Positions 11,478-64,000 of a stretch of 64,000 nt of DNA are shown here, one piece after another. Position 1 is the first letter of the stretch. Each line of letters begins with the position of its first letter. Under the pieces are notes generated by a model. It saw only the letters and a list, made by a program, of their open reading frames with translations. It did not search any database and was not told where the DNA came from. Origin of the DNA: Chitinophaga pinensis (GTDB lineage Bacteria > Bacteroidota > Bacteroidia > B-17B0 > Aurantibacillaceae); the NCBI GenBank assembly GCA_945860225.1, contig CAMAPT010000017.1, forward strand, positions 1-64,000. The letters are read 5' to 3'. The translations under genes were made by a program, and so were the position numbers.

Positions 11478-13028
11478 TTAATTCAATATTTCCATAAATT
11501 CAATATCAAAAATCAAGTTGGTTTTAGCAGGCACACCTTTCTCTGGCAATCCACTCTCCCCATAACCCAATGCCGGTGGAATAATTAATCTTTTTTTACT
11601 TCCGGTCTTCATTCCCAACAATCCCTCCTCTACTCCAACAATGTTTTGTCCGTCACCAACGATCATTTCTAAAGGTTTACCGCTATCTCTGCTCCCATCC
11701 AAAATATGTCTCATACCTTTAGAATCATAAAAATATACACAATAGGCAATTTTAACTTTAGTGCCTTTTACCACTTCTTTACCCGAACCGACATCATCAT
11801 ACAAGTACTTTAATCCGGACGATAATGACACCGTATCACGAGCTGATAATTTCATAAACGGATATTTAAACACATTTTCTATATAAATATCATAGTACGC
11901 AGCATTGTTATTTTTCAAAAACGGATTCTTTTTTCTTGAATTAGCCAATTTAAAAGGCACAATGACTGTTGCTTTTTCACCATTTTTTAAATACGTAAAT
12001 ACCTCTTCCACACCGGGGAAACCTCTGCCATATCCCGGACGTTGGGTTAATGGCTTATTTCTTTCAAAACTATTATCACTAATAATCGGATTCCCATCCT
12101 CATTTTTATAGTAGGCTTTGTAATGAAATGTTACGACATCTTCCTCAGAGATTAAATCACCATTTTTTTTGTCAAAAATGCTCAATAGCATGCTATCTTT
12201 CAATAATTGCGTTGCTTGATTTTCTGATTTTAAAAATGGCCAATTACAACTAACCAATTCTACATCATAATACAAGGTCGTGTTTGGTAAAATTTTACCG
12301 GCTTGTTTATTTCCAAAACCTAATTTTGGAGGAACAATAAACGTAGCCTTTTCTCCTATTTTCATGGTAGCGATACCTTCATCCAATCCTTTAATCATCC
12401 TTCCGGCACCTAACTGAAATACTGCTTCTGCACTATTCGTTTTTGAGGATTCAAATATTTGTCGATACCCTTTTGTACTGTATACATAACCGGTAAATCG
12501 CATACGAACTTCAGAGAACGGTACAACCTTTTCTCCTTCGCTCGATTTTACAAGTATCTTTTTTAATCCGGTATCAAATTTCAAAGTATCGTTAGTGACA
12601 TGAGGAAAAAATGCCTCGTCTATTTTTTGCAATTTAGCTTGTAAATATAGAGTCGATTGAGGAGGGATTTTCCCTACTTTCTTATCTTCATATGCCAAAT
12701 GAGGCGGGATTTTAAATAATACACTATCTCCTTCTTTGAGCAGCATAAATCCTTCGTCCCAACCTTTCAACACTTCTTCCTGCCCAATAATAAAATCCTT
12801 AGTTCCATTCATCATAACGGTTTTAACACTGCCTGTATCCGTTTTATAAAACAGGTTATAATTTACATATAAGCGATCTAGTTTAGATACCTTCTTACCT
12901 TTTCCTTTCTTAAAATATTTATATCCTAGTCCCGAATCCGTTTTTTTATATCGGTACTTTATTTTTGGTTGAGCTTGTGTCAAAAAACCAAAAAACACTA
13001 AATTTATAAAAATGATGATCGCCTTCAT
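11478..13028 (-). CDS. Secreted protein with four FKBP-type peptidyl-prolyl isomerase domains
   Basis: 516 residues with a signal peptide (about 1-19, ending TQAQ). Four FKBP units follow at about 35-135, 150-265, 285-385 and 405-516. The FKBP signature VLKGWDEG/MIKGLDEG/GVEEVF/IVGVEEG and the following IPPxLAY, VPPKLGFG, VPFKLA and IPPALGYGES blocks mark them. The third lacks most of the family's active-site strand, so it is probably structural; in the fourth the usual active-site Trp is Val. Expected role: folding helper or periplasmic chaperone in the periplasm. It is divergently transcribed from the TPR membrane protein gene. Confidence 0.85.
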   Translation of the reverse strand: MKAIIIFINLVFFGFLTQAQPKIKYRYKKTDSGLGYKYFKKGKGKKVSKLDRLYVNYNLFYKTDTGSVKTVMMNGTKDFIIGQEEVLKGWDEGFMLLKEGDSVLFKIPPHLAYEDKKVGKIPPQSTLYLQAKLQKIDEAFFPHVTNDTLKFDTGLKKILVKSSEGEKVVPFSEVRMRFTGYVYSTKGYRQIFESSKTNSAEAVFQLGAGRMIKGLDEGIATMKIGEKATFIVPPKLGFGNKQAGKILPNTTLYYDVELVSCNWPFLKSENQATQLLKDSMLLSIFDKKNGDLISEEDVVTFHYKAYYKNEDGNPIISDNSFERNKPLTQRPGYGRGFPGVEEVFTYLKNGEKATVIVPFKLANSRKKNPFLKNNNAAYYDIYIENVFKYPFMKLSARDTVSLSSGLKYLYDDVGSGKEVVKGTKVKIAYCVYFYDSKGMRHILDGSRDSGKPLEMIVGDGQNIVGVEEGLLGMKTGSKKRLIIPPALGYGESGLPEKGVPAKTNLIFDIEFMEILN

Positions 13029-47253: not shown

Positions 47254-48933
47254 ATGAAGAAGAACATTCCAATTGGTTATCATGATTTTGAGGAGGTAAT
47301 ACATCGCGGATTATATTACATAGATAAAACAGATTTGATTAAAGAAATTTACTCAATTGATAAAAAAGTATTCCTTTTTCCAAGACCGCGCCGTTTTGGC
47401 AAGACGCTAAACATGATGATGCTAAGAAGGTATTTTGAGTTTTCGAAACCTAACAAGGCACATTTATTTGATGGCTTAAACATTAGCAAGTGGGAACACT
47501 TTAACACCTATCAAGGAAAATATCCAGTTATTTGGTTGTCATTCAAGGACGTGAAACAAACCAATTGGAAAGATTCTTTTGAAAAAATAACGACTGAACT
47601 GGTTAATGAATATGAACGCCATACTTATTTATTAAAATCTGATAAATTAAGCGAAAATCAACGTCAATATTTTCAAAATATACTTAACCGAACAGCTAGT
47701 GTTCCAGAATTACAAGACAGTATTTTAAAACTTTCTGAATTTTTGTTTCTCCACCACGGTGTTAAACCAATTATATTGATTGACGAATACGATACCCCAA
47801 TTAACAATTCGTACAGCCAACAATTTTATGATGACTGTGTGAACTTTTTGCGTTTACTATATTCTAACTGTTTAAAAGACAATAACTTTATAGAACGTGC
47901 GGTGTTGACAGGCATTTACCGAGTAGCCAAAGAAAGTATTTTTTCGGGTTTAAATAACTTAAAAGTTTCCACTTTATTGGATGAAGATTTTTGTGATCAA
48001 TTTGGGTTTACTCCTGAAGAGGTGCATCAAATTCTGTTGGATTTTAATTCTTTAGACAAAGAAGAGGATGTAACAAAATGGTATAATGGGTATTTATTCG
48101 GTAGCCAACAAGTCATTTATAACCCTTGGTCTATTTTAAATTATGTCGACAATCCACAAAGAGAACTCAAACCGTATTGGGTAAATACAAGCAGTAATGA
48201 TATTATCAAGAACCTCATTGTTAATGGTTCGGCTGATGTGAAGTTGGAAATTGAAACCTTGCTACAAGGCGGCACTTTAAAAAAATCCATTACCGAAGAT
48301 GTCGTATTTGGGAATATTCAACAATCACCGGATGCTTTATGGAATTTCTTCTTGTTTTCAGGTTATTTGAAAGTGATTGAAAAACAAACGATTCACAACA
48401 AACAATATGGTTTATTTACCATACCGAATATTGAAATAAAAACGATCTTTGAGGATTCCATTCTTTTTTGGTTTGTTCAATCCGATACCTACGACCGGTT
48501 TAATACAGTTTTAAACAACCTCAAAAAAGGTTTTTTACAAGATTTTGAAGATTATTTTGAAGAATTTATTACCCGTGTTTGCAGTTATTACGACTTTGCA
48601 GATCATGAACCAGAAAGGGTTTACCATGCCTTAATCTTAGGAATGATGGTTCAATTGCAAAGTGATTATAAAATTACTTCTAATAGAGAAAGTGGATTTG
48701 GTAGATATGATATCATGCTTCATCCTTTAAAATCAGATTTACCGGCTTATATTTTTGAATTTAAAAAATTTAATGCTAAAAGAGAAAATTCAATTGATGA
48801 AACTCTTAAGAAAGCGATGGAGCAAATGAAAGCGAAAAATTACGCCACTACTTTGCAACAAGAAGGTTTCACCAACATTCACCATATTGCGATTGCTTTT
48901 AAAGGCAAGGAAGTGAAAATAAGGTATGAATAG
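47254..48933 (+). CDS. AAA-ATPase-like protein with PD-(D/E)XK nuclease domain
   Basis: 559 residues. The N-terminal ATPase_like domain (PF09820 type) begins IPIGYHDFEEVIHRGLYYIDKT and has a degenerate P-loop PRRFGKT with Lys50; ILIDEYDTP is Walker B. The C-terminal DUF1703 nuclease has GRYDIMLHP (about 482-490) and FEFKKF (E-x-K, about 503). The family is abundant in Bacteroidota and Clostridia; function unknown. A possible -7 box TAACTTTG (47242-47249) lies directly before the start. A transferred gene is possible because it reads opposite its neighbours. Confidence 0.85.
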   Translation: MKKNIPIGYHDFEEVIHRGLYYIDKTDLIKEIYSIDKKVFLFPRPRRFGKTLNMMMLRRYFEFSKPNKAHLFDGLNISKWEHFNTYQGKYPVIWLSFKDVKQTNWKDSFEKITTELVNEYERHTYLLKSDKLSENQRQYFQNILNRTASVPELQDSILKLSEFLFLHHGVKPIILIDEYDTPINNSYSQQFYDDCVNFLRLLYSNCLKDNNFIERAVLTGIYRVAKESIFSGLNNLKVSTLLDEDFCDQFGFTPEEVHQILLDFNSLDKEEDVTKWYNGYLFGSQQVIYNPWSILNYVDNPQRELKPYWVNTSSNDIIKNLIVNGSADVKLEIETLLQGGTLKKSITEDVVFGNIQQSPDALWNFFLFSGYLKVIEKQTIHNKQYGLFTIPNIEIKTIFEDSILFWFVQSDTYDRFNTVLNNLKKGFLQDFEDYFEEFITRVCSYYDFADHEPERVYHALILGMMVQLQSDYKITSNRESGFGRYDIMLHPLKSDLPAYIFEFKKFNAKRENSIDETLKKAMEQMKAKNYATTLQQEGFTNIHHIAIAFKGKEVKIRYE

Positions 48934-48992: not shown

Positions 48993-51023
48993 TTAATCTT
49001 GGCTTTTGAGTTTATCGAGGGCTGATTTAAATTCTGGTTTAGCCTCAATAAGCATAGCCTTATGAAGTAGTTCGATAGCTTGTAATGTATCTCCTTGCTG
49101 TTTTAATACCACAGATTTATTATAATACGCATCAGCATTTCTAGGATTAGTTTGTAAAGCTTTATCAAAACATATCAAGGCGGAATCTTTTTGATCTAGT
49201 TTATAATGTTTTAATCCGTCAAAAATATATTCTCGAGATATGGATTCAATAATACTGTTTAAAATTTCATCTTGTATTTCATACGTTAAGCCTGTTCGAG
49301 CTATCGTCTCAGAACTATCATACTGTTTAATTAAATAATGATTTAAAGATAAGGTTTGATAAAAAGGAACGTAACCTTTATCTAAACGAAAGCCTTTGCG
49401 AATTAGAGCATTACTTTTCTCCACTAACTGACGTTGTTCTTTTTTGTTTTTAAGATTCGTTGCTTTTTCATAATAGGTATTCGCTACACCACTCAAAAGC
49501 CTCACATTATCCGGTGCCTTCGGTAAATCGGCGAACATCAAACTTTGATTAGTTTCAAAATCACGGTTACGGACAAAACTCGTTAAGAAAGCACCTATTG
49601 CTATTAATAAAATAAAAGCTCGTATTGCAAATAAACGAGACTTTGTAATTGGATGATCAACTGATAGAAATATATTTAAAGGCCAAGCTAATAAAAAGCA
49701 AAAACCAAGTGAGGCATGAAATATAGTTCTTTCAGACATTAAAGAGCTTGATTGATTAAATAAATTAGACTCAGGTAATAACCATACCAATAATAGCATC
49801 AATGGAAACGCTATTGGTTTTCTTTTCCATAACAAGTATATTGTTACGGATAAAAATAAAGATAAGACAACTAAGAACATCAAGGTTTCAACATAAGCAA
49901 AGTCATGAAAAGCCATCGAATGGAATGAATAATCAGAAATTAATGGAAATGGTAGAAACATTAATTTGATATAATTCAATAAAATTACACACTTAGTGGT
50001 CCATTGCTGTGCATCTGTTGACATAAAAAATGGATTGGTTATGCTATTCATTTGCTCTGCAACACTTTGCTGAATTGACGACACCATAGTCCATCTTTCA
50101 TACAAATAAACAGACAGCGACACAAGAGCTCCAATTATGAAATAAAACCATGTTTTAACAGTTGCATCCACTGCATAGACAGGTCTATATAGATAGATAA
50201 ATAAAGGGAAAATTAAGAAAAGTGTGAGTGCATACTCCTTACTAAATAAAGCCAACAAAAAGCTAATTGAAAAAGCTACTAAATCTATTTTTCGAGAACT
50301 ACCAAGATAACGACAAGCGAATATAATAGTAAATAGTAAGAAACTTAATGAAAATAATTGATCGCGACCACTAATGGTAGATATTACTTCAGTGTGAATG
50401 GGATGAAGGGCAAATAACAAACAAGCTGTAAATACAATATCGGGATTAATTGAAGGGGTATATTTAGAAAAAAAGACATAAATCAGTCCAACACACAAGG
50501 CGAAAATTATAATATTATTAAAATGCCTCAAACCAATACCTCTAGCAAAAAAATCATCCTGGCTAAATATATGATCTTGATTGGTATCCTCATCAGGATC
50601 CACTTGTCCATTTTGATTCACATCCCAAGCAAATTGAACCGGTACATTTTCGGGTTTAGTTCCTGCAAACTGCTGTTCAATGGCAAAAGATATTACAGAT
50701 AAAGGTCTGTAACTACAATCAAATAAATGCTGAGAGGATGAAACGTGTTTATTGAAACTATGGTACGTCTCATGCGTCAAAATATCCGGAATACCAGAAA
50801 ACCCTTTTAAAACAAGATCATTTTCCTGAATTACCATTTGGTCATCATCAGACATTTGATGACCCAAAGTATTTAAAAAAACCAAAATAGAAGATAAAGT
50901 TAAGACCAGAAAAGCCAGGTATTTTTTTTTAAATGGGAATAATACTAAACCACTTGATTCATTTAAAAAATGAATAAAACTAGAACGAAGATTTCGAAAA
51001 TAAGCAATGAGCTTAAAAATCAT
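48993..51023 (-). CDS. TMTC-like membrane protein with TPRs and a paired EF-hand loop
   Basis: 676 residues. About 11 transmembrane helices (from 35 to 480) are followed by TPR units (about 520-676), with ADAYYNKSVVLKQQGDTLQAIELL as the clearest. The DD pair in HQMSDDDQM is typical of TMTC/GT-C glycosyltransferase-like proteins. In the loop between residues 130 and 160 lie two consecutive EF-hand loops, DVNQNGQVDPDE (134-145) and DTNQDHIFSQDD (146-157). Substrate unknown. It follows its paralogue with an 8-nt gap. Confidence 0.75.
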   Translation of the reverse strand: MIFKLIAYFRNLRSSFIHFLNESSGLVLFPFKKKYLAFLVLTLSSILVFLNTLGHQMSDDDQMVIQENDLVLKGFSGIPDILTHETYHSFNKHVSSSQHLFDCSYRPLSVISFAIEQQFAGTKPENVPVQFAWDVNQNGQVDPDEDTNQDHIFSQDDFFARGIGLRHFNNIIIFALCVGLIYVFFSKYTPSINPDIVFTACLLFALHPIHTEVISTISGRDQLFSLSFLLFTIIFACRYLGSSRKIDLVAFSISFLLALFSKEYALTLFLIFPLFIYLYRPVYAVDATVKTWFYFIIGALVSLSVYLYERWTMVSSIQQSVAEQMNSITNPFFMSTDAQQWTTKCVILLNYIKLMFLPFPLISDYSFHSMAFHDFAYVETLMFLVVLSLFLSVTIYLLWKRKPIAFPLMLLLVWLLPESNLFNQSSSLMSERTIFHASLGFCFLLAWPLNIFLSVDHPITKSRLFAIRAFILLIAIGAFLTSFVRNRDFETNQSLMFADLPKAPDNVRLLSGVANTYYEKATNLKNKKEQRQLVEKSNALIRKGFRLDKGYVPFYQTLSLNHYLIKQYDSSETIARTGLTYEIQDEILNSIIESISREYIFDGLKHYKLDQKDSALICFDKALQTNPRNADAYYNKSVVLKQQGDTLQAIELLHKAMLIEAKPEFKSALDKLKSQD

Positions 51024-51031
51024 AAATTTAT

Positions 51032-53176
51032 CTATTGTTTTACTTCAGACTGAATTTTTACGATAGCTGCTTTTGACACCTCGTTTCTAGGATTAATTTT
51101 TAACGCCGATTGAAAGCAAACTAATGCCTTATCTTTTGCACCTGCATCATACAATGCCTTCCCTAAATTGTTCCATGCTTTATCATTTGCTTTATTGGCT
51201 GAAACTGATTTTAAAAGATATTGCATTCCTTGCTTATGATCACCTTTTTGAAAAAATTCTACACCCTTCAACATCCATTTGTCACTTACTTTGCTTCTCA
51301 TTATGTTCATAGCAGGAAAAGCACGGGAACGTTTTAACACTTTATCGGACTCTATTAAACAACTATCAAATAGTTCTAACCCATAAAATGAAATGGCCTT
51401 GTTATAATTGAATTGAATATGATTTGAATATATCTTTAATCCTTGATTACAAAGATTTATTGAATTTTGTAAATAAGTTATTCTTTGCGCTTTATTTTTA
51501 GGCATTACTGATAAATCATACCATGCGGAAGAAGCCCCTACCAACATATTAATATTATTGGGAGCTTTAGGTGAATCGGCAATGAATAATGCATGATTAT
51601 TTTTCCAATCAGGATTTCGTTTAATGGTTAAAAAAGCATATATACTGTTTTGAAATATAATCATCAAACCAACAAAAAGTACTACTGATTTTTGTGTGGA
51701 TTTAAATCGAGTTATCATTGAAAAAAAGAATAAGGATACGAGAATACAAACTCCCAAAGAAGAATGAAAAAATAAGCGTTCGCCCATAGTAGCTCCAATA
51801 TCAACAAAAATATTGGCCACAGGAACAAAAAAACCAATTAATAACATAAAGCCAAATGACCATGAACTTCGTTTAAAAAATGTATAGATGGACAAAATAA
51901 TTAATACACTATATATAAGAATACTTAACCACACTTTAATAGACTGAAAATCGGAATAAGCAATAGTTGAAAATGAATAATCCATAATTAAACCATTAGG
52001 AATGAAAAAAAGCTCTAAATATTTTAGCCAAACAGCTATTTTACTAGCCAATAGTTGCTCTGTAGTTGCATAAAGGTAAGGATTTGCTATAATATCACCG
52101 CTGAAAGATGCTAAAGATACCTGATGTATAGTCGCTGAAAAACGTAGGGATAAATAAAATACCAAAGCTGAACCTAAGGCAAAAATCAAACGAGTAGAAG
52201 CTTTACGAGAACGTTTTGAAAAATAATAACCTCCATATAAAAACAAGATAGGCGTGGCCACCAAAGTACCGGCATTAAAAAATTTCACTAATGCTAAAGA
52301 GGCTAATAAAACTAATAATGCCAGTATCCAAAAACCAGATTCTTTTAAATCTAAATTATCTCTGTAAAATACAAACAAAATAGCCGGAATCATCACAAAT
52401 AATAACAAGGCATATTCCTTACTCAATAGGGCCAATAACATATAAACGGAAGTCCAAACTAAATCTTTGCGATGGAAATTCTTAATGTATTTTAACGCAA
52501 AAGATAAAGTCAAAAAAATAAACAAGAGTGATAAAATCTCATCTCTACTTTTAATATTAGCCACAACTTCGGTATGGAGTGGGTGCACCGCAAACAACAA
52601 AACGGCACAAAAAACCATATCTTTCATGGTGGGGAAAATATAGGTGATTAAAACACGGTAAATTAAACCTATTAATAAGGCATACAGTAACACATTAACC
52701 ACATGCCTAAAACCGGCACCTTTAACCCAAAAATCATAATCTGTGTATAATCCATCTTTATTCGTATCTTCTTTCGGATCTTTTAAGCGATTATGATTGG
52801 TATCCCAACTATTTGGACCAACAATACCATCTGGAATAATGCCAATAAATTGCTGTTCAATAGCAAATGTTATAAGAGATAGTGGACGATAACGACCACC
52901 CGGCAAACTACTTTCTGATTGAAGTTGTTTATAATAACTGTAATAACTATCATGGGTTAATAAACTGGGGATACCCTTGAACCCTTTCATTACAAATTCA
53001 TTTTTATGTAATACAACCTCATCGTCAAATGCCACTTCGTGTTTGAAAGTATTAAGATACAGACTAATTGAAATCAATAGTAAAAAAGCATAAGGTTGTA
53101 ATGCATTTTTAAAAGGAATATATTGATAGCCTGAAGAAGAATTAATGAGATGCTTTGTGCGCGCAGTGATAGACAT
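51032..53176 (-). CDS. TMTC-like membrane protein with TPRs, paralogue of the downstream gene
   Basis: 714 residues, same layout as the downstream gene: DD pair (51-52), YRPLSLITFAIEQQF, HPLHTEVVANIKSRDEIL, a row of transmembrane helices and C-terminal TPRs (AWNNLGKALYDAGAKDKALVCFQSALKINPRN). The EF-hand loops are at 125-136 (DTNHNRLKDPKE) and 137-148 (DTNKDGLYTDYD). The TPR part is probably extracytoplasmic. Family members in eukaryotes transfer O-mannose; in bacteria the substrate is unknown. A -7 box (TATATTTG, 53225-53218) lies upstream. Confidence 0.75.
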   Translation of the reverse strand: MSITARTKHLINSSSGYQYIPFKNALQPYAFLLLISISLYLNTFKHEVAFDDEVVLHKNEFVMKGFKGIPSLLTHDSYYSYYKQLQSESSLPGGRYRPLSLITFAIEQQFIGIIPDGIVGPNSWDTNHNRLKDPKEDTNKDGLYTDYDFWVKGAGFRHVVNVLLYALLIGLIYRVLITYIFPTMKDMVFCAVLLFAVHPLHTEVVANIKSRDEILSLLFIFLTLSFALKYIKNFHRKDLVWTSVYMLLALLSKEYALLLFVMIPAILFVFYRDNLDLKESGFWILALLVLLASLALVKFFNAGTLVATPILFLYGGYYFSKRSRKASTRLIFALGSALVFYLSLRFSATIHQVSLASFSGDIIANPYLYATTEQLLASKIAVWLKYLELFFIPNGLIMDYSFSTIAYSDFQSIKVWLSILIYSVLIILSIYTFFKRSSWSFGFMLLIGFFVPVANIFVDIGATMGERLFFHSSLGVCILVSLFFFSMITRFKSTQKSVVLFVGLMIIFQNSIYAFLTIKRNPDWKNNHALFIADSPKAPNNINMLVGASSAWYDLSVMPKNKAQRITYLQNSINLCNQGLKIYSNHIQFNYNKAISFYGLELFDSCLIESDKVLKRSRAFPAMNIMRSKVSDKWMLKGVEFFQKGDHKQGMQYLLKSVSANKANDKAWNNLGKALYDAGAKDKALVCFQSALKINPRNEVSKAAIVKIQSEVKQ

Positions 53177-53484: not shown

Positions 53485-56400
53485 CTAATTACCCTTTTTT
53501 ACTGAAGCTTTTTTAACAACTCGTGCTTTTTTGAAACCTGAAGTTTGATAATCACGACAGAATTTTTCAGCATCAGACACGTTTCGGTAATCTCCAGATG
53601 TATACACTTTATTACCATTAGGTAATTTCGTTTCAGTAACTTTATTTAAACGAACTAACTGTAGTAATAAACCCGTTGGAGATTTTGATTTAGGGAGTTC
53701 ATCCACTTTAATGGTGAAACTCGCATTTAATTCATCAATTAAATCTTGCATTTCTTGTTTTACAATAGTCCTCACTTCTATACGAGTAGCCGCACGTAAA
53801 ATTAATTGATTTAACACATTTATTAAAGAATCCAGCTTGTCCATTTTGGCATCAATCGATATGGACTGCATACCATCTTTTCCGTCACGTGCTTCTTTAC
53901 CTTTACTATTAGCTAAGTCGTCTTTCTGAGAAGACTTGTCTTTATCTTGACCATCAGCATCTATTCCCTGCTTATCTTTATCAGATTTTTTAGAACCTGC
54001 TTCTTCTTCTACATAAGTAATCTTACCATCAGGACCAAAAATCTTACGTTTTACTTTGCGCTTACGTTCAATAATCATAAAATTATGATAATAACTTTCA
54101 ATACCAGTACTTAAATCTAAATCAATATCATTTTCAGCCAAATAAAATTGATTACCTAACGCTTTTTCGTCAAAACGTAATTTATATTTGGCGTAAGGTA
54201 CATAAAAATTAAAATTACCTCGATTATCAGTGATAGCTGTATTGACTTTACCAGCGGTATCAATTAAATAAATTTTAAACCGAGACACATCCAATTTTTC
54301 AAACAATTCTCCGGTAAAGGCTTCGCGATCCAATTCAACGCCTCCTGTAACTTGTACGCCTTTACTAAATGGAAGATACATCAAATCTGGGCCGCAGACA
54401 TCCACACTATCGTCCACATTTGGAAACCAAGAACCCATATCAATTAAAGGGAAAACTTGTACTTTATAGCGCTGAAAACTCATATTTAAGAAGCTAGCCA
54501 TTCCTTTATCGTCAGTTATAACTTCAAAATCATTCATTCGTAACACCACATTTTCAACAGGCACTTCACCTTCATCCATTATTTTATTTCCATTAACATC
54601 TAAGAAAACCACGAACTTAGCATCACATGATTTAAGTTTACGAAAACGTTTAGGAAGTGGGATAGAAAAATCTTTTTTAACTGAAACACCAAAAACAACA
54701 TTTTTAGAAACCAAACGTTCATCTGATTGAATAGCACGTATTTGATTTGGACCTGCGTAGTTATATTTGTATGAATAACCAGAAGTCACATTAAGACTTG
54801 TATTAAATGCAAAACGATAACCACTGTTGGTAAAATAATATATTTGAGAAAAAATACTTAAACTATGCCTTTTAAGCGCTGTTAAATAGGTGTAAGTAGG
54901 ATTATTTTCTAATATCAATTTCAAATTTTTGAACTGATATTGATGTCCAACTGATAATCTGGCCATTTGGGAGTAAGATTTGCTATTTTGTAAATTATTA
55001 ACCATTTCTCCTATACCTAATCCGCCATAATTATATGTAGCCATAGCATTCCACACTTTATACCTAGCAAAAAAATTGACAGTTGAAGTAAAGAAAATAC
55101 CTAATTGTTTATTATCAAGTAATTCATTATAAGCAAACCTAAAATTTGAGCCATAATAGAAATTAGATTCAAGATTAGAACGACTAACGTTGAACTGACA
55201 ACCACCAGAAAGTATGGTATCCATATTAACTTTACTATAATTCACGAAAAATAGAGGAGACCAATTAAGTTTACCGTATCTAGATTTTAAATTTATTTGT
55301 AAATTATTATTAAAAGTTAAAAACTCACTTGATTCTATATTCGGAATATCTGTTTTGTAATTAAACATAGATAAAGAGGTATTTAAATTAAAACTTTTTC
55401 CTCTTTTTGATGTATATATATTGTTCCAATTAAGATTAAAAATTTTATTTGCAACTGTGTCAGAAGTATTAGAAAATTTCTGAAAAGAATTATTGGCATT
55501 TAAATTTGTACTATAACGTTTAATACTAGTTCCTATACCGAATCCAGCATTATACATTCTACTAGACACCTCATTATTAATAATATTATCAACAAAACCT
55601 CCATTAAATCCAAAAAATGTAGCGCCAAAAGGTCGAAGAGTTATCGAAGCATTAATTCCCTTTGATGAATTTCTACCATAACTAAATGCAGTTGTAGCAT
55701 TTACAGAGGAACTGAAATATTTATGAGAAAAACCATATAATATACTGTAAAAATCATTGTTTGATTTCTTTAAAATAGACTCTCTACTATGCGTAGCAAA
55801 AATATTAGAATGTTTACCAATATTATACCCTAACATAAACATCTTGATATTACCTCCGACCGCAAAACCCAAAAAATACCTTTTATTTGTATAACCGAAA
55901 TTGACTGACAAGCGTTGTGTCAGAAATGCATTTGAATATTTAAAATATGAAAAACCAGTTTGAATTTGATAATTCAAACTTGATGTTTTACCTGTTCGCG
56001 TGTTTCCTTGAAAATTATATGTTAAAATAGGTTGTTCACCAAGAATATTCGTTAGATTCATAAACATGGTCAAAGGAATTGACCCAACAGAATTTCCAGC
56101 TTTAGCAAAACTATTTAATTTCACGAAATCAATACTATTGGCTAGTTTCACAAAATCGGCTTTTTTACCTTTGCTACCACCACCCTTATTATCGAAACGA
56201 ATTTCAGAACCTCTTATAAATAACCCATAACGTTTTTCTGTAACAGCCGCTGAAGGACTATATCCCCAAACATCAACTCTAGTTTGATTACGTTCTTGCG
56301 TAAGAATTTTTATTTTATATGAAATTGTGGTGTCAGAATAAGGAGACAAAGTAGTTTCGAAATAGGATTTTTTATTGATATTACCAGCCGAATCTAAAAC

Positions 56401-57009
56401 TAAAAAACCCTTACCAATTTTATTCATACTCACCAAAATTTCTTGATCTTCATCACCATCATTGGATAAATTTACCTGAAAATTAGCTTCATTTTCACCA
56501 TTTAATAAATAGATACGAGGACGAGGCAAAATTCGCATTTGCCAATTGGTTATTTTGGGTCTACCAGCCACAAAACGAGCAAAAGATATTTGTTTACCTT
56601 CGTTAGTATTCACATAAGCTGCAATACTATACTTAGTTCCACCTTTTGCTTTTTTGTCGGTAGCCAAAACCCTAACAGGAACAAACACAGAATCGTTAGG
56701 CTTTAAAGTATATTCCCTTTCTTGATTATTTAAAGTTTTCCAACCTGGCGGTAAACTGAGCGATACATTAAACGTATAATTTTTACCGTTATTATTTTTA
56801 ATTTTTAATACATTGGACATTACTGCCACTTCCTTAAATTCAACTTCATTGAATAAGAAACTTGCAGTAATAGATTTTTTATTTTGTGGTTTACTTTGCG
56901 AAAATAAATTCGAACTTGTAAAACACAAAAACACAAGGAATAATGCAATCCTTGATTGAATATTTTTAAATATGTTTAAATAGTATATAATCACTTTTCT
57001 ACCAAACAA
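53485..57009 (-). CDS. Large outer-membrane beta-barrel protein with SPOR-like tail (candidate usher-like assembly protein)
   Basis: 1174 residues. Signal peptide ends near 38. Residues 45-270 form two Ig-like/NEW3 domains. Residues 300-790 alternate hydrophobic and polar residues with many Tyr, Phe, Asn and Gly, as a large outer-membrane beta-barrel does. Residues 798-880 are a CarboxypepD_reg/SdrD-B-like fold with the calcium-type loop DVNGNKIMDEGE (804-815), followed by a second beta-sandwich (885-975). A charged linker (1000-1050), a helix and a SPOR-like end (VYTSGDYRNVSDAEKF, 1135-1150) follow; SPOR domains bind peptidoglycan. The start overlaps the preceding subunit gene by 19 bases. 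Neighbours (chaperone, two subunits) suggest an usher or secretion pore; this is inference. Confidence 0.7.
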   Translation of the reverse strand: MFGRKVIIYYLNIFKNIQSRIALFLVFLCFTSSNLFSQSKPQNKKSITASFLFNEVEFKEVAVMSNVLKIKNNNGKNYTFNVSLSLPPGWKTLNNQEREYTLKPNDSVFVPVRVLATDKKAKGGTKYSIAAYVNTNEGKQISFARFVAGRPKITNWQMRILPRPRIYLLNGENEANFQVNLSNDGDEDQEILVSMNKIGKGFLVLDSAGNINKKSYFETTLSPYSDTTISYKIKILTQERNQTRVDVWGYSPSAAVTEKRYGLFIRGSEIRFDNKGGGSKGKKADFVKLANSIDFVKLNSFAKAGNSVGSIPLTMFMNLTNILGEQPILTYNFQGNTRTGKTSSLNYQIQTGFSYFKYSNAFLTQRLSVNFGYTNKRYFLGFAVGGNIKMFMLGYNIGKHSNIFATHSRESILKKSNNDFYSILYGFSHKYFSSSVNATTAFSYGRNSSKGINASITLRPFGATFFGFNGGFVDNIINNEVSSRMYNAGFGIGTSIKRYSTNLNANNSFQKFSNTSDTVANKIFNLNWNNIYTSKRGKSFNLNTSLSMFNYKTDIPNIESSEFLTFNNNLQINLKSRYGKLNWSPLFFVNYSKVNMDTILSGGCQFNVSRSNLESNFYYGSNFRFAYNELLDNKQLGIFFTSTVNFFARYKVWNAMATYNYGGLGIGEMVNNLQNSKSYSQMARLSVGHQYQFKNLKLILENNPTYTYLTALKRHSLSIFSQIYYFTNSGYRFAFNTSLNVTSGYSYKYNYAGPNQIRAIQSDERLVSKNVVFGVSVKKDFSIPLPKRFRKLKSCDAKFVVFLDVNGNKIMDEGEVPVENVVLRMNDFEVITDDKGMASFLNMSFQRYKVQVFPLIDMGSWFPNVDDSVDVCGPDLMYLPFSKGVQVTGGVELDREAFTGELFEKLDVSRFKIYLIDTAGKVNTAITDNRGNFNFYVPYAKYKLRFDEKALGNQFYLAENDIDLDLSTGIESYYHNFMIIERKRKVKRKIFGPDGKITYVEEEAGSKKSDKDKQGIDADGQDKDKSSQKDDLANSKGKEARDGKDGMQSISIDAKMDKLDSLINVLNQLILRAATRIEVRTIVKQEMQDLIDELNASFTIKVDELPKSKSPTGLLLQLVRLNKVTETKLPNGNKVYTSGDYRNVSDAEKFCRDYQTSGFKKARVVKKASVKKGN

Positions 57010-57740
57010 AAATGCACTCTTAATTTATATATGCCAGGTATATATTGATATCCAGGTCTAATTCGATAATCGATGTTGAACGTAAACTCAGAATAATCTA
57101 CTCCCATATAAGTACCTGGACCATTAACTTGTTGACCCACAGCTGGAGTTGAGGTACAAGTAATGGCATTATCTGGATTAGTATCAATAGTAGAATTAAC
57201 AATATCGATGCAATCATGATCGGCGGCATAAGTTTCCCATGAACCGTTGGTAATTGGATCTTGACATCCATTAGTCACTCTAACCATCAACTGATCAATA
57301 GGCGGTTTATTAGATCCTGTACCAGTTCCATAGGTATCAATTGTTTCCCATTCAGTTTCACTTAAAGCATAATCCATGTTATCTATACACATCACTAATT
57401 TCCAACGACATGTAGAAGCAGATGTTGATGAAGTTTTAACTGTCAATTTTAAAATAGTGGAACCACCCATTGTGATACCTCGGGTATATTTTGAAAAACT
57501 ATTGAATTCAAAATCTTTATTCAAAATCCCATCATCCACATCTAAATAGGATACAGAAGCCAAACGTTCACAAAAATTATTGCCTGTTGTTGATACTATA
57601 GTTGGATCAGAACAAATTTGGGAAAAAGAATCAAAAACATTAAATATTAATAAAAAGATTAAAAACTTTTTATAATTTGATTTTAATACATCGTCATTTA
57701 AGATGGAAACAAAAATATATCTATAAATAAACGAAACCAC
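56991..57740 (-). CDS. Secreted beta-sandwich protein, second subunit of the chaperone-linked cluster
   Basis: 249 residues. N-terminal hydrophobic signal (about 20-41, ending DSFSQ), preceded by a long n-region. The mature part has several Cys (CSDP, CRW, MCID, NGCQ, DHDCID, TCTS), probably disulfides. It shares with the upstream subunit the order F-x-F...Y-x-x-GIT-x-x-G-x-T-x-L-x-V...W-x-L, then NIDYRIRPG and PGIYKLRVHFCLVEK at the end. It is not similar to any named family I recognise. The last 19 bases overlap the beta-barrel gene. Confidence 0.65.
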   Translation of the reverse strand: MVSFIYRYIFVSILNDDVLKSNYKKFLIFLLIFNVFDSFSQICSDPTIVSTTGNNFCERLASVSYLDVDDGILNKDFEFNSFSKYTRGITMGGSTILKLTVKTSSTSASTCRWKLVMCIDNMDYALSETEWETIDTYGTGTGSNKPPIDQLMVRVTNGCQDPITNGSWETYAADHDCIDIVNSTIDTNPDNAITCTSTPAVGQQVNGPGTYMGVDYSEFTFNIDYRIRPGYQYIPGIYKLRVHFCLVEK

Positions 57741-57770
57741 TTAATTTTCTAAAATATAATTTTTAATAAA

Positions 57771-57806
57771 CTAAAAAAGGCAAGATTAGAACTCTAATCT
57801 TGCCTG
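57771..57806 (-). terminator. Terminator behind the abundant-type subunit gene
   Basis: A perfect 13-bp stem (AGGCAAGATTAGA, 57778-57790, with 57793-57805) and 2-nt loop, followed on the minus strand by a T-tract. It stands 14 nt after the stop codon of the 57.8-58.6 kb gene and before the second subunit gene, so it would limit transcription of the downstream two genes. Confidence 0.85.
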
Positions 57807-57819
57807 TAAAGAGAAATGA

Positions 57820-58641
57820 TTAGTTTTCAACTAATACATATTTCACGTTCATTGTGTAAACACCCGGACGAGCATATTTACCAGTACCTTGGTTTGTTAA
57901 AGGAGCTAAAGTTTGATTATTACCACCTTGAGCTGCAGCATTTGTAGCACGAGGGAAAGTAGCAGGTAAACCTGGAACAATACGGTAATCGATTGAATAG
58001 TAATAGTTACTATTCGCACCTACTGAAGCAGTACCAGCAGTATTTTCAACTAAATAAGTACCACCAACTACAGCTTCTGAGCTAGCAAATCCACCAGCAA
58101 TGTATTTTGCATCAGCAGCAGGTCTAACGTAAGGAGTTGGAGTTGCATATACGTTATTTAAACCTGCATTAGCAGTTCCTGAAGGGAAAGCAGTAAAATA
58201 ATCAGCATCAGCAAAGTTTGCACCAGCAGCAGTACCTACAGCATCAGGATTTGCTTTATCTTGATGCAATTCTAATAAAGTGATAGGTAAAGAAGTTGTT
58301 GCGTTAGCATCATTTCCATCACCGTAAGATACTTGGTTATCCCAAATTAAAGTTGAAGAACCAGCAGATGCAGCAGAAGAGAAACCTGCAGCATATAAAT
58401 CCCAAGATACAGTAGAAGATACTGTTAAGTTTGTAGCACCGTATTGAGTGATACCCCCAACGTATTCAGAAATTTGGTCGAACACGAAATCAACGTTTTG
58501 AGATCCTGTCATACCCAATTGCAAAATTGGTTGTAAGTCCATTGTTACGGTAACATTTTGCTCATCAATTAATTGAGCGTTAGTAGTTTTAGCTGACAAT
58601 AAAGCAGCAACTACAGCAACTGATAAAATAACTTTTTTCAT
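57820..58641 (-). CDS. Secreted beta-sandwich subunit, likely the major product of the cluster
   Basis: 273 residues with a clear signal peptide (1-22, ending TTNA). The mature part is rich in Ala, Ser, Thr, Gly and Asn and has no Cys, as structural surface subunits often do. Core motifs: VDFVFDQISEYVGGITQYGATNLTV (about 49-73), SWDLYA, YSIDYRIVPG and the end PGVYTMNVKYVLVEN; the same positions are conserved in the gene downstream. The codon choice is tidy and unlike its AT-rich neighbours, suggesting high expression. A 385-nt leader lies upstream and a strong terminator downstream. WxL-like and pilin-like folds are the closest comparisons; neither is proven. Confidence 0.75.
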   Translation of the reverse strand: MKKVILSVAVVAALLSAKTTNAQLIDEQNVTVTMDLQPILQLGMTGSQNVDFVFDQISEYVGGITQYGATNLTVSSTVSWDLYAAGFSSAASAGSSTLIWDNQVSYGDGNDANATTSLPITLLELHQDKANPDAVGTAAGANFADADYFTAFPSGTANAGLNNVYATPTPYVRPAADAKYIAGGFASSEAVVGGTYLVENTAGTASVGANSNYYYSIDYRIVPGLPATFPRATNAAAQGGNNQTLAPLTNQGTGKYARPGVYTMNVKYVLVEN

Positions 58642-59027
58642 GTTGTTTGTTTTTTAGAGGTTAATTATTGATTTGATTTTTGTTTTTTATTTATCTTTAA
58701 ACATATTGAGGCTTGTTTAGTATGCCTTCTAAATAATATTCGATTGAATACCAAATAAAACGTTAAATATATGATTTATTTATTGACAACTATAGATTTC
58801 ACTAGGCTATATAGGGTTAACTGATGAGATAAAAATTATAAATAAAATTCAAGAATAATTAGTAAATTATGTGGTTAAAAGTTATGTAGTGGTTAAATTA
58901 ATTGTTTTGAACAAATTGGTTTTAAAACTTAAAAAAAATTAAAATTTACATTAATTAACTTTTACAAAACTAATGATTTTTTTGGATAGATTCATAGAAA
59001 ATATTGAATTAAATTGTTAAATGATTG
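58642..59027. other. 386-bp gene-free leader of the subunit gene
   Basis: AT-rich, no open frame of note. A weak -7 element TTTATTTG lies about 110 nt upstream of the subunit start on the minus strand without a well-spaced TTG, and TATGTTTA (58704 area) is another partial match. A long untranslated leader is possible. No terminator for the preceding chaperone gene was found. Confidence 0.4.
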
Positions 59028-59963
59028 TTATTCAATAGTAAATTCTAATTCAGCGGTTTGCAATTCTTCTTTATTTCCAAAATCTAATACTGACATTGCA
59101 GAATAAGGGCCTTTTTCTATATCAGAAGGTAATTCAACCTCCATCTCTTTTTCGTAACCAGGAAAAACTGCAAATTGTTTCACTTTTAATTTCTCTTGTT
59201 TTCCTGTTACGACATTAGTCAATTCAATGTAATTTAAGCAGTAAGCAATACCTGTACCTAAATTTTTTGCTTTTAAATATATGGAACTATTTTTTTTGTC
59301 TGTTTTTTTATTAAAATTCATAGCCATAATTTCCACATTATTAACGGTAACATTTGGGGGATTTTGAAATATATTCACACCAAAACCAAAGGTATTTTGA
59401 ACCCCCATACCAATTGCCTTCCCACTTTTAGGTATGTCTAATTTTTCTCTATCAAGCACCTGATCTATGGTCAAAATAGTCCACATACTCACAGCCATGG
59501 AATCGCCTGCAGGAATATCAACCGTTATTGTAACCTGCTTGGATTCACGAGGTTTAAGTTCAATAAAAGTTGGAGAAACAACAATATATTTACTTAGGGC
59601 ATACATCGAATATTTATCTACTGGAACATCGGTTTTACCATCGGAACCAGCACCAAAATCTTGAAATCCAATTTGAAAATTAAACGGCTTTTTAGTATCG
59701 TTGGATACTCTTAAAGTTTTAGATTGTAAAGTTCCAGGCTTCACGTTAAACCTCATGGTTGAAGGAGATACAGACACTCCCACGTCTGGCATCGTATCTA
59801 TCACCGCTTTTTTAATAGGAGCAACTGTTGGCGTTTTAGTTGCTTCGGGTAAAGTCTTTTTTACAGTAGTTGTATCTCCTAATCCACGACGAATTTGCTG
59901 TGCAAAAGACACGTTAGTTAATAAGACACAAAAAAAGGATAAAATAACAAAGATATTCCTCAT
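59028..59963 (-). CDS. Periplasmic PapD/DUF916-like chaperone
   Basis: 311 residues. Signal peptide (1-21, ending SFAQ), a Thr/Pro/Lys linker (25-58), then two Ig-like domains. The first starts VGVSVSPSTMRFNVKPG and continues SKTLRVSNDTKKPFNFQIGFQDFG; the ending IVVSPTFIELKPRESKQVTITVDIP is the PapD G1-like strand rule of hydrophobic residues followed by proline-rich strand. DUF916 proteins, which bind WxL subunits in Gram-positives, have the same layout. It precedes the two subunit genes and the barrel on one strand. It follows the T9SS gene after 43 nt. Confidence 0.7.
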   Translation of the reverse strand: MRNIFVILSFFCVLLTNVSFAQQIRRGLGDTTTVKKTLPEATKTPTVAPIKKAVIDTMPDVGVSVSPSTMRFNVKPGTLQSKTLRVSNDTKKPFNFQIGFQDFGAGSDGKTDVPVDKYSMYALSKYIVVSPTFIELKPRESKQVTITVDIPAGDSMAVSMWTILTIDQVLDREKLDIPKSGKAIGMGVQNTFGFGVNIFQNPPNVTVNNVEIMAMNFNKKTDKKNSSIYLKAKNLGTGIAYCLNYIELTNVVTGKQEKLKVKQFAVFPGYEKEMEVELPSDIEKGPYSAMSVLDFGNKEELQTAELEFTIE

Positions 59964-60006: not shown

Positions 60007-63000
60007 TTAATTTTTAAATAGTTTGTATAAAAATGGTGGATTTTCAGAATTTATGATTTTTAAAAGGTAAACGCCTGAAGGAAAATTGGCCACATTGATG
60101 ATTAAAGATGACTCGTCAACTTGTATTTTGTAAATTAATTTACCGGCCATATCGTAGATATATACATAAGCCTTTTCAGAAATACCTTGTATGTACAAAT
60201 TGTCGGTTGCAGGATTTGGGTAAATAATCAAATTGGGTTCGTGGTATGAATTGATTTCTGTACAATTTTCTACCAAAATCGAATCCCTTGCTTCATTAGA
60301 ACAACCATTGTTATTTGTATATTGATAGGTTAAAACATGGTAGCCATCGCCTGCTAAATTGGGGTTGAATTGATTACCATTTTCTAAACCGAAGCCTGAA
60401 AATAGGCCACCTGAGGGCAAGCCCTCTTGTAATGCAAAAGCTTGTGCTTGCAAACACACCACTTTATGTTGTAACGATAAACTAACGGTTGGTGATGGTA
60501 ATACCTCAATGCTTATTGAATCTTTGGAAGAGCAATGATACACATTGGTATATTGGTAATGAATAAAATGCGAGCCCACACCGGCTATTTTTGGAAGGAA
60601 GGTTGCGTCGGATTGCACGCCAATTCCAGATAATAGACCACCTAGAGGGCTGACGGAAAAACTAAATGGCGCGTCTAAAAAGCAAATTGTGTCTGAACCA
60701 GCTGAGATAGATACTACGGGGTATGGACTAATCGAAATACGAACAGAATCCATATCACTACAATGATTACCATCTGTAACCGTTACTGAATAGGTACCTG
60801 CCTGATTAACCATTAAGGTTGGTGTTGAGTTTCCTGTATTCCATAAATAGGAAGAAGCTCCTGAACTGGCATTCAATACAATGGAATTCCCTTCGCAAAT
60901 GGTGGTATCGTTAACTAATGAAATCAATGGTGCATTTACCTGCACCGAATTGGAAGCAATTGCCTGACAACCATTAGCATCAGTTATCAATAAAGAAAAG
61001 TTGGTGCTTGATAAAGGAGAAACCTTTGCGGTGTATTCATGTGATGGTTTAACCAAATGACTTGGTAGCCACTGATAAGATAAGATAGTGTTTGTATCTT
61101 TAAATACTAAACTCCAACGATGTAATTGACCGACATCCCCTTGCGATATATCTTTTATTTGCAATTTCCAGATTCCGTTAGAAGTTCCACTCAACTGGGA
61201 TAAAGATTGCTTTGGCAGAAAAAAACCGGTGAATGGCGGCAACCCATCATTAATAGAAGTAGTTGCCTGATTAGTAAATGCCGTTCGTATAAAATTAGCT
61301 CCCGTAATACCATTATTGACTGCCAAATTAACAGAGGAACCATTGGGAGCTATTAAACTAATCACCAAATCTCCATCAAACGGATGTATCAATGAATCTA
61401 TTCTAACTTCAGCTAATTGAAATGCCTCTCCTTTAACTCCCTGAACCTGAATGGATGAATACATTCCTTGTTGGTTATTATCAGGAATTGACAAAGGCCC
61501 ATCTGTGCTAAAAAATCGAGGTAAATCATTTATTCCCAAACCATTAACAGCCACTGAAGGTTCTAATAAAATACTATCACGCTTACATATAGAGTGTAAC
61601 GTCTCGGCAAATGAAACTTTAGGATTTTGCGAATAGAAGGTTTGACGGAGCGTATCATTTGTTGGGTTAATATCTCCAGAAGGAACATTAGAAAAAATAA
61701 CAAACCGGTACGTTCCCGCTTTTTGTAACTGATCGCATGTCGTAATGGTATAAGTCGCTTGTTCATTCGAATTTAACTGTCCCTGATCTAAAGACAAAGA
61801 ATACGTATTACTTGCGTTTCCATTACTAATGGTCGCTATTAATTGAATTGGTTCTAATTCCATATTCATCGATAAAGGACCTGTGTTTTTTACAGACACC
61901 GCAAGAGGCTCGGTGGATGTGTAGCAGTTCTTTTGAATAGGAGAAACTACATTCATCAGTGAAACATCATAACTTGCTACTTTTGAGCATGCTATATCGT
62001 CCAAGTGTAAATCACAATTGCCATCAGCTAATAAGCCATCAGTGGCTAAAAAAGCCGGAATAATTTCCTGTCCGGCATAGTTTTTTAACATGACATAAAA
62101 CTGACTAAACACATTCGTTAACCCAGAACTTGCTGTTACAGAATCTACTTTCTGAAAGCTAAGCCCACAATCAGTTGATATCAAGACATATAATTTGTCA
62201 TCGGCACCCATCGAACCAACCGCAGAACTTCCTGCCGACGTAACAGCTGCCTTGTATGATAATATGGCATTAGAAGTAGGTATAATTTTGGGGCCAATTA
62301 TCCACTCGTGTTTATTGTTACTACTTAGATTAAATTTTGCATTTGTATTAACCAATGAAGCTGAAATCCAAGCAGAAACTGTACCTGAAGGAATAGCTCC
62401 CGATGCCTCGTACCAACCCGAAAAAAGCGAAGATAGATTCGTACTGTTGTAGTTGGTAAAATCTACCTGAAAAGGAATGACTCCGGGCGCTGTATTAGTA
62501 ACCACAACTTTAGCCAAAGTATCATTCGATTCGAGCTGGTCTCCAGATAATTTAGTGAAACAAGATAAACTATAAGTACCATAAAAAGATAAATCCATAT
62601 CTCCAACGGGAATTTGAAGAGATGAAAAGGCAGCAATAGGCTGATTATTGTTAACTGAATTATCTGATAAAACAACTGTAACAGACTGGCTAGATGCACC
62701 TGATAACGAAACAGAAACCGTTAAAGAATGAACTGATAAATCAAGTGGAACACCTGTATTGTTAATCAACTCTACACTAATTGGCTGATTGGCTGAATAA
62801 CAACCTGAAATACTAGAAGCGGCAAAAGCTAATGGTTTCACGTCAATAGTCAACGGTATAAATTCATCAGCACCGATATCTCCGGGATTAGTGCGCGAAT
62901 CTCCTTCAATATCCTTGGTTATATAAGGCACCAACGCTTGATTAGATGCCGCAGCGTTTAATGAAGGATTGGATACATGTAAATTGGAAGAAGATACAAA

Positions 63001-64000
63001 GAAAGGGTTTACATGAATTGAATGGGCATCTTGGGTAAAATTAGATTGCCAATTGGCCAATGTGGCAAAGTCCGTAGAACTTCCGTTTCCGATAAAACCA
63101 TTGGTAGCATGATGGATGTACAAATCATTGTAATCAGATACAGAACCCACATTGCCAATGGATGTTGAAGAACTGCTTTTCCAGCAAAAATGTTTGGCAG
63201 AACCTGCTTGTGCAGAAGTGAAATTAGCCAAAACATTATTCAAAATTTTAAAAACTGGACCTGAAACCGTAGCAGTTTCTAAACAAGCCGAGGAGGCATT
63301 TACAGCGGAACTGCCATCTATATTGACAGAATTATACGCCACCTCCATCACCGAAGAGGCATGCCCTCCTCCACCCTGTTGTAAATTGATTCCTCTTAAA
63401 ATTCTTGCAGAACTTGAGCCTCCAGCATAAGCGCTAGAAATTTCGGATACAAAATTATTATAAATACGAATCGTATGAACACCAAAAGTTGAAGCTGGTA
63501 AATTTGCTCTGATACCACTCACAATTCCCGTAGAGCTTGGACTATTATTTCTAATAGAACGAATACGATTATTGAAAACCTCAGTGATTCCGTATCCATT
63601 CTCAATAAAAATACCTTGCAGTGAAGTTTGCGTAGCTATGTTTTGAATTTGATTATATGCAACAATAGCATTTTTTTGATTTCTGATCCATATTCCGGCA
63701 CACGATACTGTAGAACTTCCACCACCAATATCATAAGGTTGACTACTTCCTATTACACAATTCGTCACCAGGCAAGTATCATCTGGAAATGTAGGATTTC
63801 CGTACAATACAATACCCGAAAAACAATTTTGAATCATTACCGAATCAAACGTATTCATTTTATTAATACCAGTTATTCCTGATAATACACCTGAGGAATT
63901 TTGGAAAATTCCTATAGAATTGCCATTCGTTCTATCCAGGGCTACTGAACAATTTTTTATCGTATTATATTGAGCACCATTATTATCTGATGCGTTTAAT
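60007..64000 (-). CDS. T9SS-exported multi-domain beta-helix protein (N-terminus outside window)
   Basis: The open frame reads on without stop from the apparent ATG at 63858 to the window edge (47 more codons), so the gene is partial. From the 63858 ATG: a parallel beta-helix (about 1-330, many NGYG/IRNN turns), DUF/CARDB-like Ig repeats (about 335-760), a P-domain (about 800-925, FDGDLVISLIAPNG), then PKD/Ig repeats (930-1200) and the T9SS type A sorting domain (about 1206-1283: IIYPNPATDNLYIQG ... GVYLLKI). It should be secreted and fixed to the cell surface. Function probably adhesion or extracellular binding. The secretion genes are not in the window. Confidence 0.85.
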   Translation of the reverse strand, partial: LNASDNNGAQYNTIKNCSVALDRTNGNSIGIFQNSSGVLSGITGINKMNTFDSVMIQNCFSGIVLYGNPTFPDDTCLVTNCVIGSSQPYDIGGGSSTVSCAGIWIRNQKNAIVAYNQIQNIATQTSLQGIFIENGYGITEVFNNRIRSIRNNSPSSTGIVSGIRANLPASTFGVHTIRIYNNFVSEISSAYAGGSSSARILRGINLQQGGGGHASSVMEVAYNSVNIDGSSAVNASSACLETATVSGPVFKILNNVLANFTSAQAGSAKHFCWKSSSSTSIGNVGSVSDYNDLYIHHATNGFIGNGSSTDFATLANWQSNFTQDAHSIHVNPFFVSSSNLHVSNPSLNAAASNQALVPYITKDIEGDSRTNPGDIGADEFIPLTIDVKPLAFAASSISGCYSANQPISVELINNTGVPLDLSVHSLTVSVSLSGASSQSVTVVLSDNSVNNNQPIAAFSSLQIPVGDMDLSFYGTYSLSCFTKLSGDQLESNDTLAKVVVTNTAPGVIPFQVDFTNYNSTNLSSLFSGWYEASGAIPSGTVSAWISASLVNTNAKFNLSSNNKHEWIIGPKIIPTSNAILSYKAAVTSAGSSAVGSMGADDKLYVLISTDCGLSFQKVDSVTASSGLTNVFSQFYVMLKNYAGQEIIPAFLATDGLLADGNCDLHLDDIACSKVASYDVSLMNVVSPIQKNCYTSTEPLAVSVKNTGPLSMNMELEPIQLIATISNGNASNTYSLSLDQGQLNSNEQATYTITTCDQLQKAGTYRFVIFSNVPSGDINPTNDTLRQTFYSQNPKVSFAETLHSICKRDSILLEPSVAVNGLGINDLPRFFSTDGPLSIPDNNQQGMYSSIQVQGVKGEAFQLAEVRIDSLIHPFDGDLVISLIAPNGSSVNLAVNNGITGANFIRTAFTNQATTSINDGLPPFTGFFLPKQSLSQLSGTSNGIWKLQIKDISQGDVGQLHRWSLVFKDTNTILSYQWLPSHLVKPSHEYTAKVSPLSSTNFSLLITDANGCQAIASNSVQVNAPLISLVNDTTICEGNSIVLNASSGASSYLWNTGNSTPTLMVNQAGTYSVTVTDGNHCSDMDSVRISISPYPVVSISAGSDTICFLDAPFSFSVSPLGGLLSGIGVQSDATFLPKIAGVGSHFIHYQYTNVYHCSSKDSISIEVLPSPTVSLSLQHKVVCLQAQAFALQEGLPSGGLFSGFGLENGNQFNPNLAGDGYHVLTYQYTNNNGCSNEARDSILVENCTEINSYHEPNLIIYPNPATDNLYIQGISEKAYVYIYDMAGKLIYKIQVDESSLIINVANFPSGVYLLKIINSENPPFLYKLFKN

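Follow-up and report, generated by a model that had tools for sequence, protein, structure and literature searches.

The 64,000-nucleotide stretch analyzed here (the window) covers positions 1 to 64,000 of contig CAMAPT010000017.1 from a Chitinophaga pinensis assembly. Between positions 53485 and 59963 it carries a module of four genes, which was analyzed as a candidate pilus system. In order of transcription, the module comprises a gene for a chaperone, a gene for a Cys-free subunit (hereafter the major pilin), a hairpin, a gene for a Cys-rich second subunit and a gene for an outer-membrane barrel (coordinates in Table 1). A preliminary description of this DNA had placed four open reading frames (ORFs) in this order on one strand, and all of them were found as described, on the minus strand. 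It had also proposed an independent surface-assembly system resembling either the chaperone-usher or the WxL/DUF916 type; the data supported this proposal, which was largely right and can be sharpened. Three observations went beyond it: the first subunit is 55% identical to the TLP-1/TLP-2 fibre protein, the second subunit has no donor strand, and two further conserved genes belong with the set, one for an FKBP protein and one for a WG-repeat lipoprotein. The module is present as a single copy in the 2.9-Mb genome. No NCBIfam model matched any of the four proteins, and a literature search, with most subscription papers outside its reach, did not find the operon described.

The distribution of the module was examined through its barrel gene. 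The barrel was found in 16 of 87 genomes of the host family, a few of these being tail-only matches, and in 53 of 396 genomes of the host class, representing 36 of the 198 sampled genera. In a phylum-wide sample it was present in 9 of 393 genomes, every one inside the host class. Loci with a barrel score above 540 bits (n = 32) were treated as close loci, and the four genes lay on one strand in 26 of them, across many families. Four of the six exceptions (L011, L030, L092 and L101) end at a contig edge, L021 has no chaperone on the remainder of its contig, and L031 has the chaperone on the opposite strand. The commonest gene order among the loci was that of the window. The neighbourhood survey that had been suggested as a test thus showed the four genes together, in the same order, in many genera. 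That four unrelated envelope genes are adjacent by chance is already refuted by the conservation of the set and its strand in the close loci, and the pilin-specific hairpin, conserved despite its differing sequence, also speaks against it; we give this explanation practically no weight.

Two very distant loci, L118 and L119, contained a barrel and chaperone pair without recognisable pilins. Secreted proteins of 178-181 aa are encoded near these pairs, and in L119 the upstream flank of the pair holds four of them in tandem. Such loci may represent an additional branch of this machine.

The hairpin reported earlier as a terminator between the two subunit genes is real. A strong hairpin with a T-run was found no more than 60 nt past the pilin stop in 25 of 43 loci and in none of the shuffled sequences. 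The same scan detected no such hairpin after the chaperone (0/42) or the barrel (0/48), and one after the second subunit (1/41). Because the sequences of the post-pilin hairpins vary from locus to locus, it is the hairpin structure that is conserved. The hairpin in the window is probably a partial, attenuator-type terminator that sets the excess of pilin. The codon adaptation of the pilin gene (0.76) was the highest among the 49 ORFs of the window, with a ribosomal mean of 0.68, and that of the other module genes was 0.56 (chaperone), 0.59 (barrel) and 0.63 (second subunit). The pilin-specific hairpin and the high codon adaptation agree with a single structural protein made in abundance and assembly parts made sparingly. 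The spacer upstream of the pilin gene likely holds a candidate pilin promoter and 5' untranslated region, and the sole promoter-like element seen in it was one weak Bacteroidota -7-like element, TAGTTTTG.

Subunits and the TLP fibres

A profile built from both subunits was compared with the PDB sequences. Two of these were found with certainty, 9IKK (TLP-2, E 2e-50) and 9IKJ (TLP-1, E 2e-48), and both entries have 16 chains per assembly. The major pilin alone matched the TLP chains with a phmmer E value of 1.6e-75. Its identity to 9IKJ was 55% over 249 aa, which is the whole mature length; the match started at the mature N-terminus, and the identity to the TLP chain was the highest among all pilins in the collected loci. 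The N-terminal donor segment of the major pilin is QLIDEQNVTVTMDLQPILQLGM. When the donor strands were compared, the window pilin had LIDEQNVTVTMDLQPILQLGM and the TLP protomer LISEQNVTVTMDLQPVLQLGM, and the strand was kept in near homologues. The segment LxxEQNVTVTMDLQPxLQLGM is common to the window pilin and the TLP fibre protein, and in the alignment the near homologues of the major pilin begin QLxDExxVTxTMDLQPxLQLxM.

9IKJ and 9IKK, cryo-EM structures of a hollow fibre from environmental samples, are probably those of the CryoSeek paper. In that work (PNAS 2024), TLP-1 fibres are said to have been recovered from pond water as hollow fibres about 8 nm wide. They are reportedly joined by donor-strand exchange, the N-terminal strand of protomer n+4 completing protomer n. 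The TLP-1/TLP-2 fibre is not known to have had a producer or assembly genes assigned to it. By the sequence of its pilin, the module belongs to the TLP fibre family, and the pilin would be a former of TLP-type hollow fibres. A Pfam search with the subunits gave no family match. The subunits were also compared with FimA-type pilins, and homology was rejected (hhalign Prob 0.3-0.6 with signal peptides removed).

By hhalign, the second subunit and the major pilin are homologues (Prob 99.7). In the alignment it has a short Cys-containing lead, followed almost at once by the core strand N-x-x-F-x-F-D, and the donor motif of the near major-pilin homologues was absent from the second-subunit homologues. 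Since it is a homologue that keeps the groove and core without the donor segment, the second subunit is probably the tip, that is, the first subunit of the fibre, minor and Cys-rich. Its start at GTG 57740 is doubtful, because most near relatives are shorter (200-225 aa). Alternatively, the second subunit might be a base terminator or anchor, or a regulator of assembly, with the remainder of the interpretation unchanged. A position at the base would agree with its gene adjoining the barrel gene, to which it appears to be translationally coupled. However, donor-strand base terminators such as FimI and PapH keep the donor strand and have no open groove, whereas the second subunit shows the reverse features, with the core kept and the donor strand lost, and we consider a base or regulatory role unlikely.

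In the relative locus L101, one ORF (L101_7, 446 aa) has a start like that of the second subunit and an end like that of the major pilin. It is possibly a natural fusion of tip and pilin, or else an effect of the reading frame or of the assembly.

Chaperone and outer-membrane barrel

The chaperone has a signal peptide and is soluble. Its AlphaFold2 model (mean predicted local distance difference test score, pLDDT, 78.6) shows two domains, each a beta-sandwich, and a disordered linker at the N-terminus; its last element is a beta strand, and no C-terminal transmembrane helix was seen in the model. Foldseek analysis against the PDB gave as the top match the WxLIP of Enterococcus faecium in its WxL-bound form (9i25, E 3.8e-13, full-length). 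The next ranks were held by CsuC, CfaA, FimC, Caf1M, DraB and PapD, together with one serine peptidase fibril. The Pfam family WxLIP_PGBD (DUF916) was matched by 13 of 13 chaperone homologues and WxLIP_HBD by 3 of 13 (E<0.1); the window copy matched WxLIP_PGBD under the Pfam cut-off, in agreement with the DUF916-like chaperone of the preliminary description. PapD_N was not among the Pfam families listed for the 13 homologues. The chaperone was also aligned by hhalign with nine pilus chaperones of E. coli K-12, taken as one profile; the match ran end to end with a score of 43, and the maximum of 40 column shuffles was 22. On the basis of the Foldseek ranking, the Pfam matches and the hhalign score, the predicted chaperone stands between WxLIP and the PapD-type chaperones, with a modelled fold nearest to WxLIP. 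Its G1-like segment, KAIGMGVQNTFGFGVNIFQNP, has a putative donor role. Neither the chaperone profile nor the barrel profile found a useful match among the PDB sequences, and the fold search alone was informative. A contig search of genomes with the chaperone returned two contigs of metagenome-assembled genomes and no more.

These matches raise the possibility of a Gram-negative WxL/WxLIP system, in which the DUF916-like protein would be a long-lived envelope anchor of two surface proteins and not a transient chaperone. The best structural matches, which are WxLIP proteins, one of them WxL-bound, and the WxLIP families matched by the homologues agree with such a role. The subunits might also be related to the WxL domain, since they show a conserved W-x-L (in 37/43 and 36/41 subunits) and, at the C-terminus, a [YF]-x-L motif, although a short motif by itself is weak evidence. 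However, the WxLIP proteins have a C-terminal transmembrane helix that the chaperone model lacks, none of 24 subunits matched the WxL Pfam family (E<0.1), and the set includes both an outer-membrane barrel and a subunit with a fibre-forming homologue of solved structure. An anchor of this kind is very improbable. Among the families named earlier for comparison, DUF916 was recovered, and Pfam matches to PapD_N, Usher (PF00577) and WxL were not.

The barrel ORF has the 1174 residues reported for it, with a likely start at GTG 56994 that gives a protein of 1169 aa. This start and the stop codon of the second subunit share bases in the sequence GTGA, and the overlap likely couples the translation start of the barrel with the second subunit. 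In the AlphaFold2 model (mean pLDDT 70.9), beta-sandwiches at residues 46-268 are followed by about 26 long strands (residues 285-783), two C-terminal beta-sandwiches (793-1002), a coiled coil and a SPOR-like tail. No insert of the size of the usher plug was seen in the model, the confidence of which was moderate. The Ig-like N-terminal and carboxypeptidase-regulatory-like C-terminal domains noted before were recovered as sub-threshold Pfam matches, FixG_C at the N-terminus and SdrD_B, SpaA and CarboxypepD_reg at the C-terminus, and 12 of 12 aligned barrels matched SdrD_B and CarboxypepD_reg. The barrel matched neither the usher family PF00577 nor the TonB plug and barrel families of Pfam.

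The best barrel match in Foldseek was FimD (3rfz, E 3.5e-12), followed by PapC (1e-8), and TonB receptors and LptD ranked below these at about 2.5e-8. With two ushers as the closest PDB barrels, weak as the match is, an ordinary TonB-dependent or porin-type protein is not favoured. When the barrel was aligned by hhalign with ushers, TonB receptors and LptD, the scores did not decide its ancestry, and its N- and C-terminal domains gave no profile match to the corresponding domains of FimD. Unexpectedly, the Ig pair at the N-terminus of the barrel resembles the chaperone (hhalign Prob 92.6, score 51 against a shuffled maximum of 22, signal peptides removed). A reasonable reading of this similarity is a docking or gating module, derived from a chaperone and fused to the platform. 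The barrel would thus be an outer-membrane assembly platform, and by sequence it is not demonstrably an usher.

The SPOR-like tail also occurs in repeats of unrelated 800-aa proteins (L032 and L034), and many barrels do not have it. The weak matches to these 800-aa proteins were confined to the tail and were rejected as barrels.

Another possibility is that the barrel, as an ordinary transporter or porin, simply lies beside a fibre that assembles itself and leaves the cell by a different route, for example by type IX secretion. In favour of this, the genome encodes a SprA homologue, and the barrel shows weak fold similarity to ushers without sequence homology to them. In contrast, no Por_Secre_tail was found in the subunits, while the giant secreted protein encoded next to the module carries one. 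The subunits also travel with the barrel across many families, and the barrel is coupled in translation, as far as the GTGA overlap suggests, to the tip subunit. We regard an unconnected transporter or porin as very improbable.

Proposed assembly route and comparison with known systems

We consider it highly probable that the module encodes a TLP-type pilus built by donor-strand exchange together with its assembly line, in which the chaperone is WxLIP-like and the platform in the outer membrane is a distinct one. The subunits would be exported by Sec and captured in the periplasm by the chaperone, which, according to its modelled fold, may complete the open Ig fold of each new subunit with a strand of its first domain. 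The Cys-rich subunit would enter the barrel first and form the tip. Many major pilins would follow, the N-terminal strand of each filling the groove of the subunit nearer the tip, to give a hollow helical fibre; this geometry is taken from the 55%-identical protein of 9IKJ/9IKK, with the n+4 exchange as reported for the TLP-1 fibres. Docking or gating would probably take place at the chaperone-like Ig pair of the barrel, and hand-over may be the role of the barrel's C-terminal domains. The conservation of the post-pilin hairpin suggests that it keeps the pilin above the amounts of tip and platform, and the position of the FKBP gene in the operons of relatives suggests that its product aids subunit folding.

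Several points weigh against this interpretation. The one-strand adjacency of the four genes breaks in distant loci, where the chaperone gene is often on the opposite strand and divergently transcribed. The barrel model had a predicted template modelling score (pTM) of 0.48, and its TM-scores to FimD were just 0.24/0.32. By hhalign the barrel reached Prob 7.5-13 against seven K-12 ushers, little above the Prob of 2-3 against five E. coli TonB receptors. Finally, secretion, surface location and polymer formation by this organism are predictions, drawn from the genes and from predicted folds.

The module was compared with four known systems. The TLP-1/TLP-2 fibres share with it the pilin, over the full mature chain and with the same N-terminal segment; in that case the fibre alone was solved, whereas the window pilin comes with genes for a chaperone, a tip, a barrel and accessory proteins. 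The chaperone-usher pili (classical, alternative and archaic) resemble the predicted set: both would combine a periplasmic chaperone of two Ig domains with donor-strand subunits, a tip subunit and a barrel in the outer membrane that carries beta-sandwich domains at its N- and C-terminal ends, and FimD was the top barrel match. However, the window set has no PapD_N or Usher Pfam match, and its pilins are unrelated by profile to E. coli pilins. The usher barrel has 24 strands with a plug between strands 6 and 7, whereas the window barrel is modelled with about 26 and no plug-sized insert; the layout with an N-terminal and two C-terminal domains is similar, while the families in the window barrel are the chaperone-like Ig pair and SdrD_B/SpaA. 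The module would work like a chaperone-usher pilus but is not classed as one, because the usher and pilin features that were tested were not found.

The Gram-positive WxL/WxLIP (DUF916-DUF3324) clusters offer the closest fold and likewise combine one two-Ig WxLIP-like protein with two homologous partners, whereas the window set has no transmembrane helix or detected WxL domain and adds a barrel and a subunit of the fibre-forming type. The type V (FimA/Mfa1) fimbriae share the phylum Bacteroidota and donor-strand polymerisation. Type V pilins are lipoproteins matured by the Rgp protease without a chaperone or usher, and in this genome no Mfa_like_1 pilin was found. Since PF00577 was likewise found in none of 60 relatives (the E. 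coli control was positive), no known pilus assembler of the usher or Mfa kind was found as a substitute.

In a broader interpretation, to which we give even weight for and against, the module represents a separate class of pilus machine, widespread in one Bacteroidota class, in which a chaperone of WxLIP lineage feeds TLP-type pilins to a plug-less barrel with its own chaperone-like pair; diderm donor-strand pili would then also be built on a platform not descended from ushers. Because the 55%-identical pilin sits with assembly-like genes, the environmental fibre, which is not known to have had a producer assigned, gains a likely Bacteroidota owner and a testable assembly machine, with a chaperone, tip, platform and gene order. 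The question of how the fibre is assembled becomes testable in a culturable relative. In addition, one protein that resembles both links the Gram-positive WxLIP proteins with the Gram-negative pilus chaperones, families so far kept apart.

Accessory and neighbouring genes

Table 1. Coordinates of the module and of neighbouring features in the window.
Feature	Coordinates	Strand	Details
Chaperone	59028-59963	minus	311 aa
AT-rich spacer between chaperone and major pilin	58642-59027	minus	386 nt
Major pilin (Cys-free, Ala/Ser/Gly-rich subunit)	57820-58641	minus	273 aa
Hairpin and T-run 3' of major pilin	57778-57805	minus	12-bp stem
Second subunit (Cys-containing)	56991-57740	minus	249 aa
Outer-membrane barrel	53485-57009	minus	1174 aa as ORF
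SPOR-like tail of barrel	53485-53960
Multi-transmembrane and TPR protein, TMTC/GT-C-like	51032-53176	minus	51% identity to G002 neighbour
Second multi-transmembrane and TPR paralogue	48993-51023	minus	39% identity to G002 neighbour L022_8, same synteny
Four-repeat FKBP-type peptidyl-prolyl isomerase	11478-13028	minus	53% identity to G002 operon copy
WG-repeat-like lipoprotein	10292-11416	minus	45% identity to gene after FKBP in G002
Giant secreted protein	60007-63858		ORF to about 65016 in contig
AAA-ATPase_like / PDDEXK_9 gene	47254-48933

A gene for an FKBP isomerase comes after the barrel gene in ten related loci, as the next gene in nine of them and with one gene in between in L092. The FKBP copy of the relative G002 matched PF00254 with an E value of 5.4e-60, and the window FKBP gene is displaced about 40 kb from the module. 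The WG-repeat lipoprotein gene partners the FKBP gene both in G002 and in the window. All eight genes, including those for two TPR membrane proteins, stand in one row in G002. Judged by their positions in relatives, the FKBP and WG-repeat lipoprotein genes belong with the pilus set. The two genes for multi-transmembrane and TPR proteins come after the barrel gene in both the window and G002, and one of the G002 copies weakly matched TMTC_DUF1736 (E 0.009). Their products are candidate O-mannosyltransferases or O-glycosyltransferases that may act on the pilin.

The giant secreted protein encoded directly upstream of the module has a P-domain, weak PKD/Ig-like domains and a type IX sorting domain. 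Similar giant secreted proteins adjoin the chaperone in L036 and L037 and are found near the module in L021 and L025. The AAA-ATPase_like / PDDEXK_9 gene also adjoins the module.

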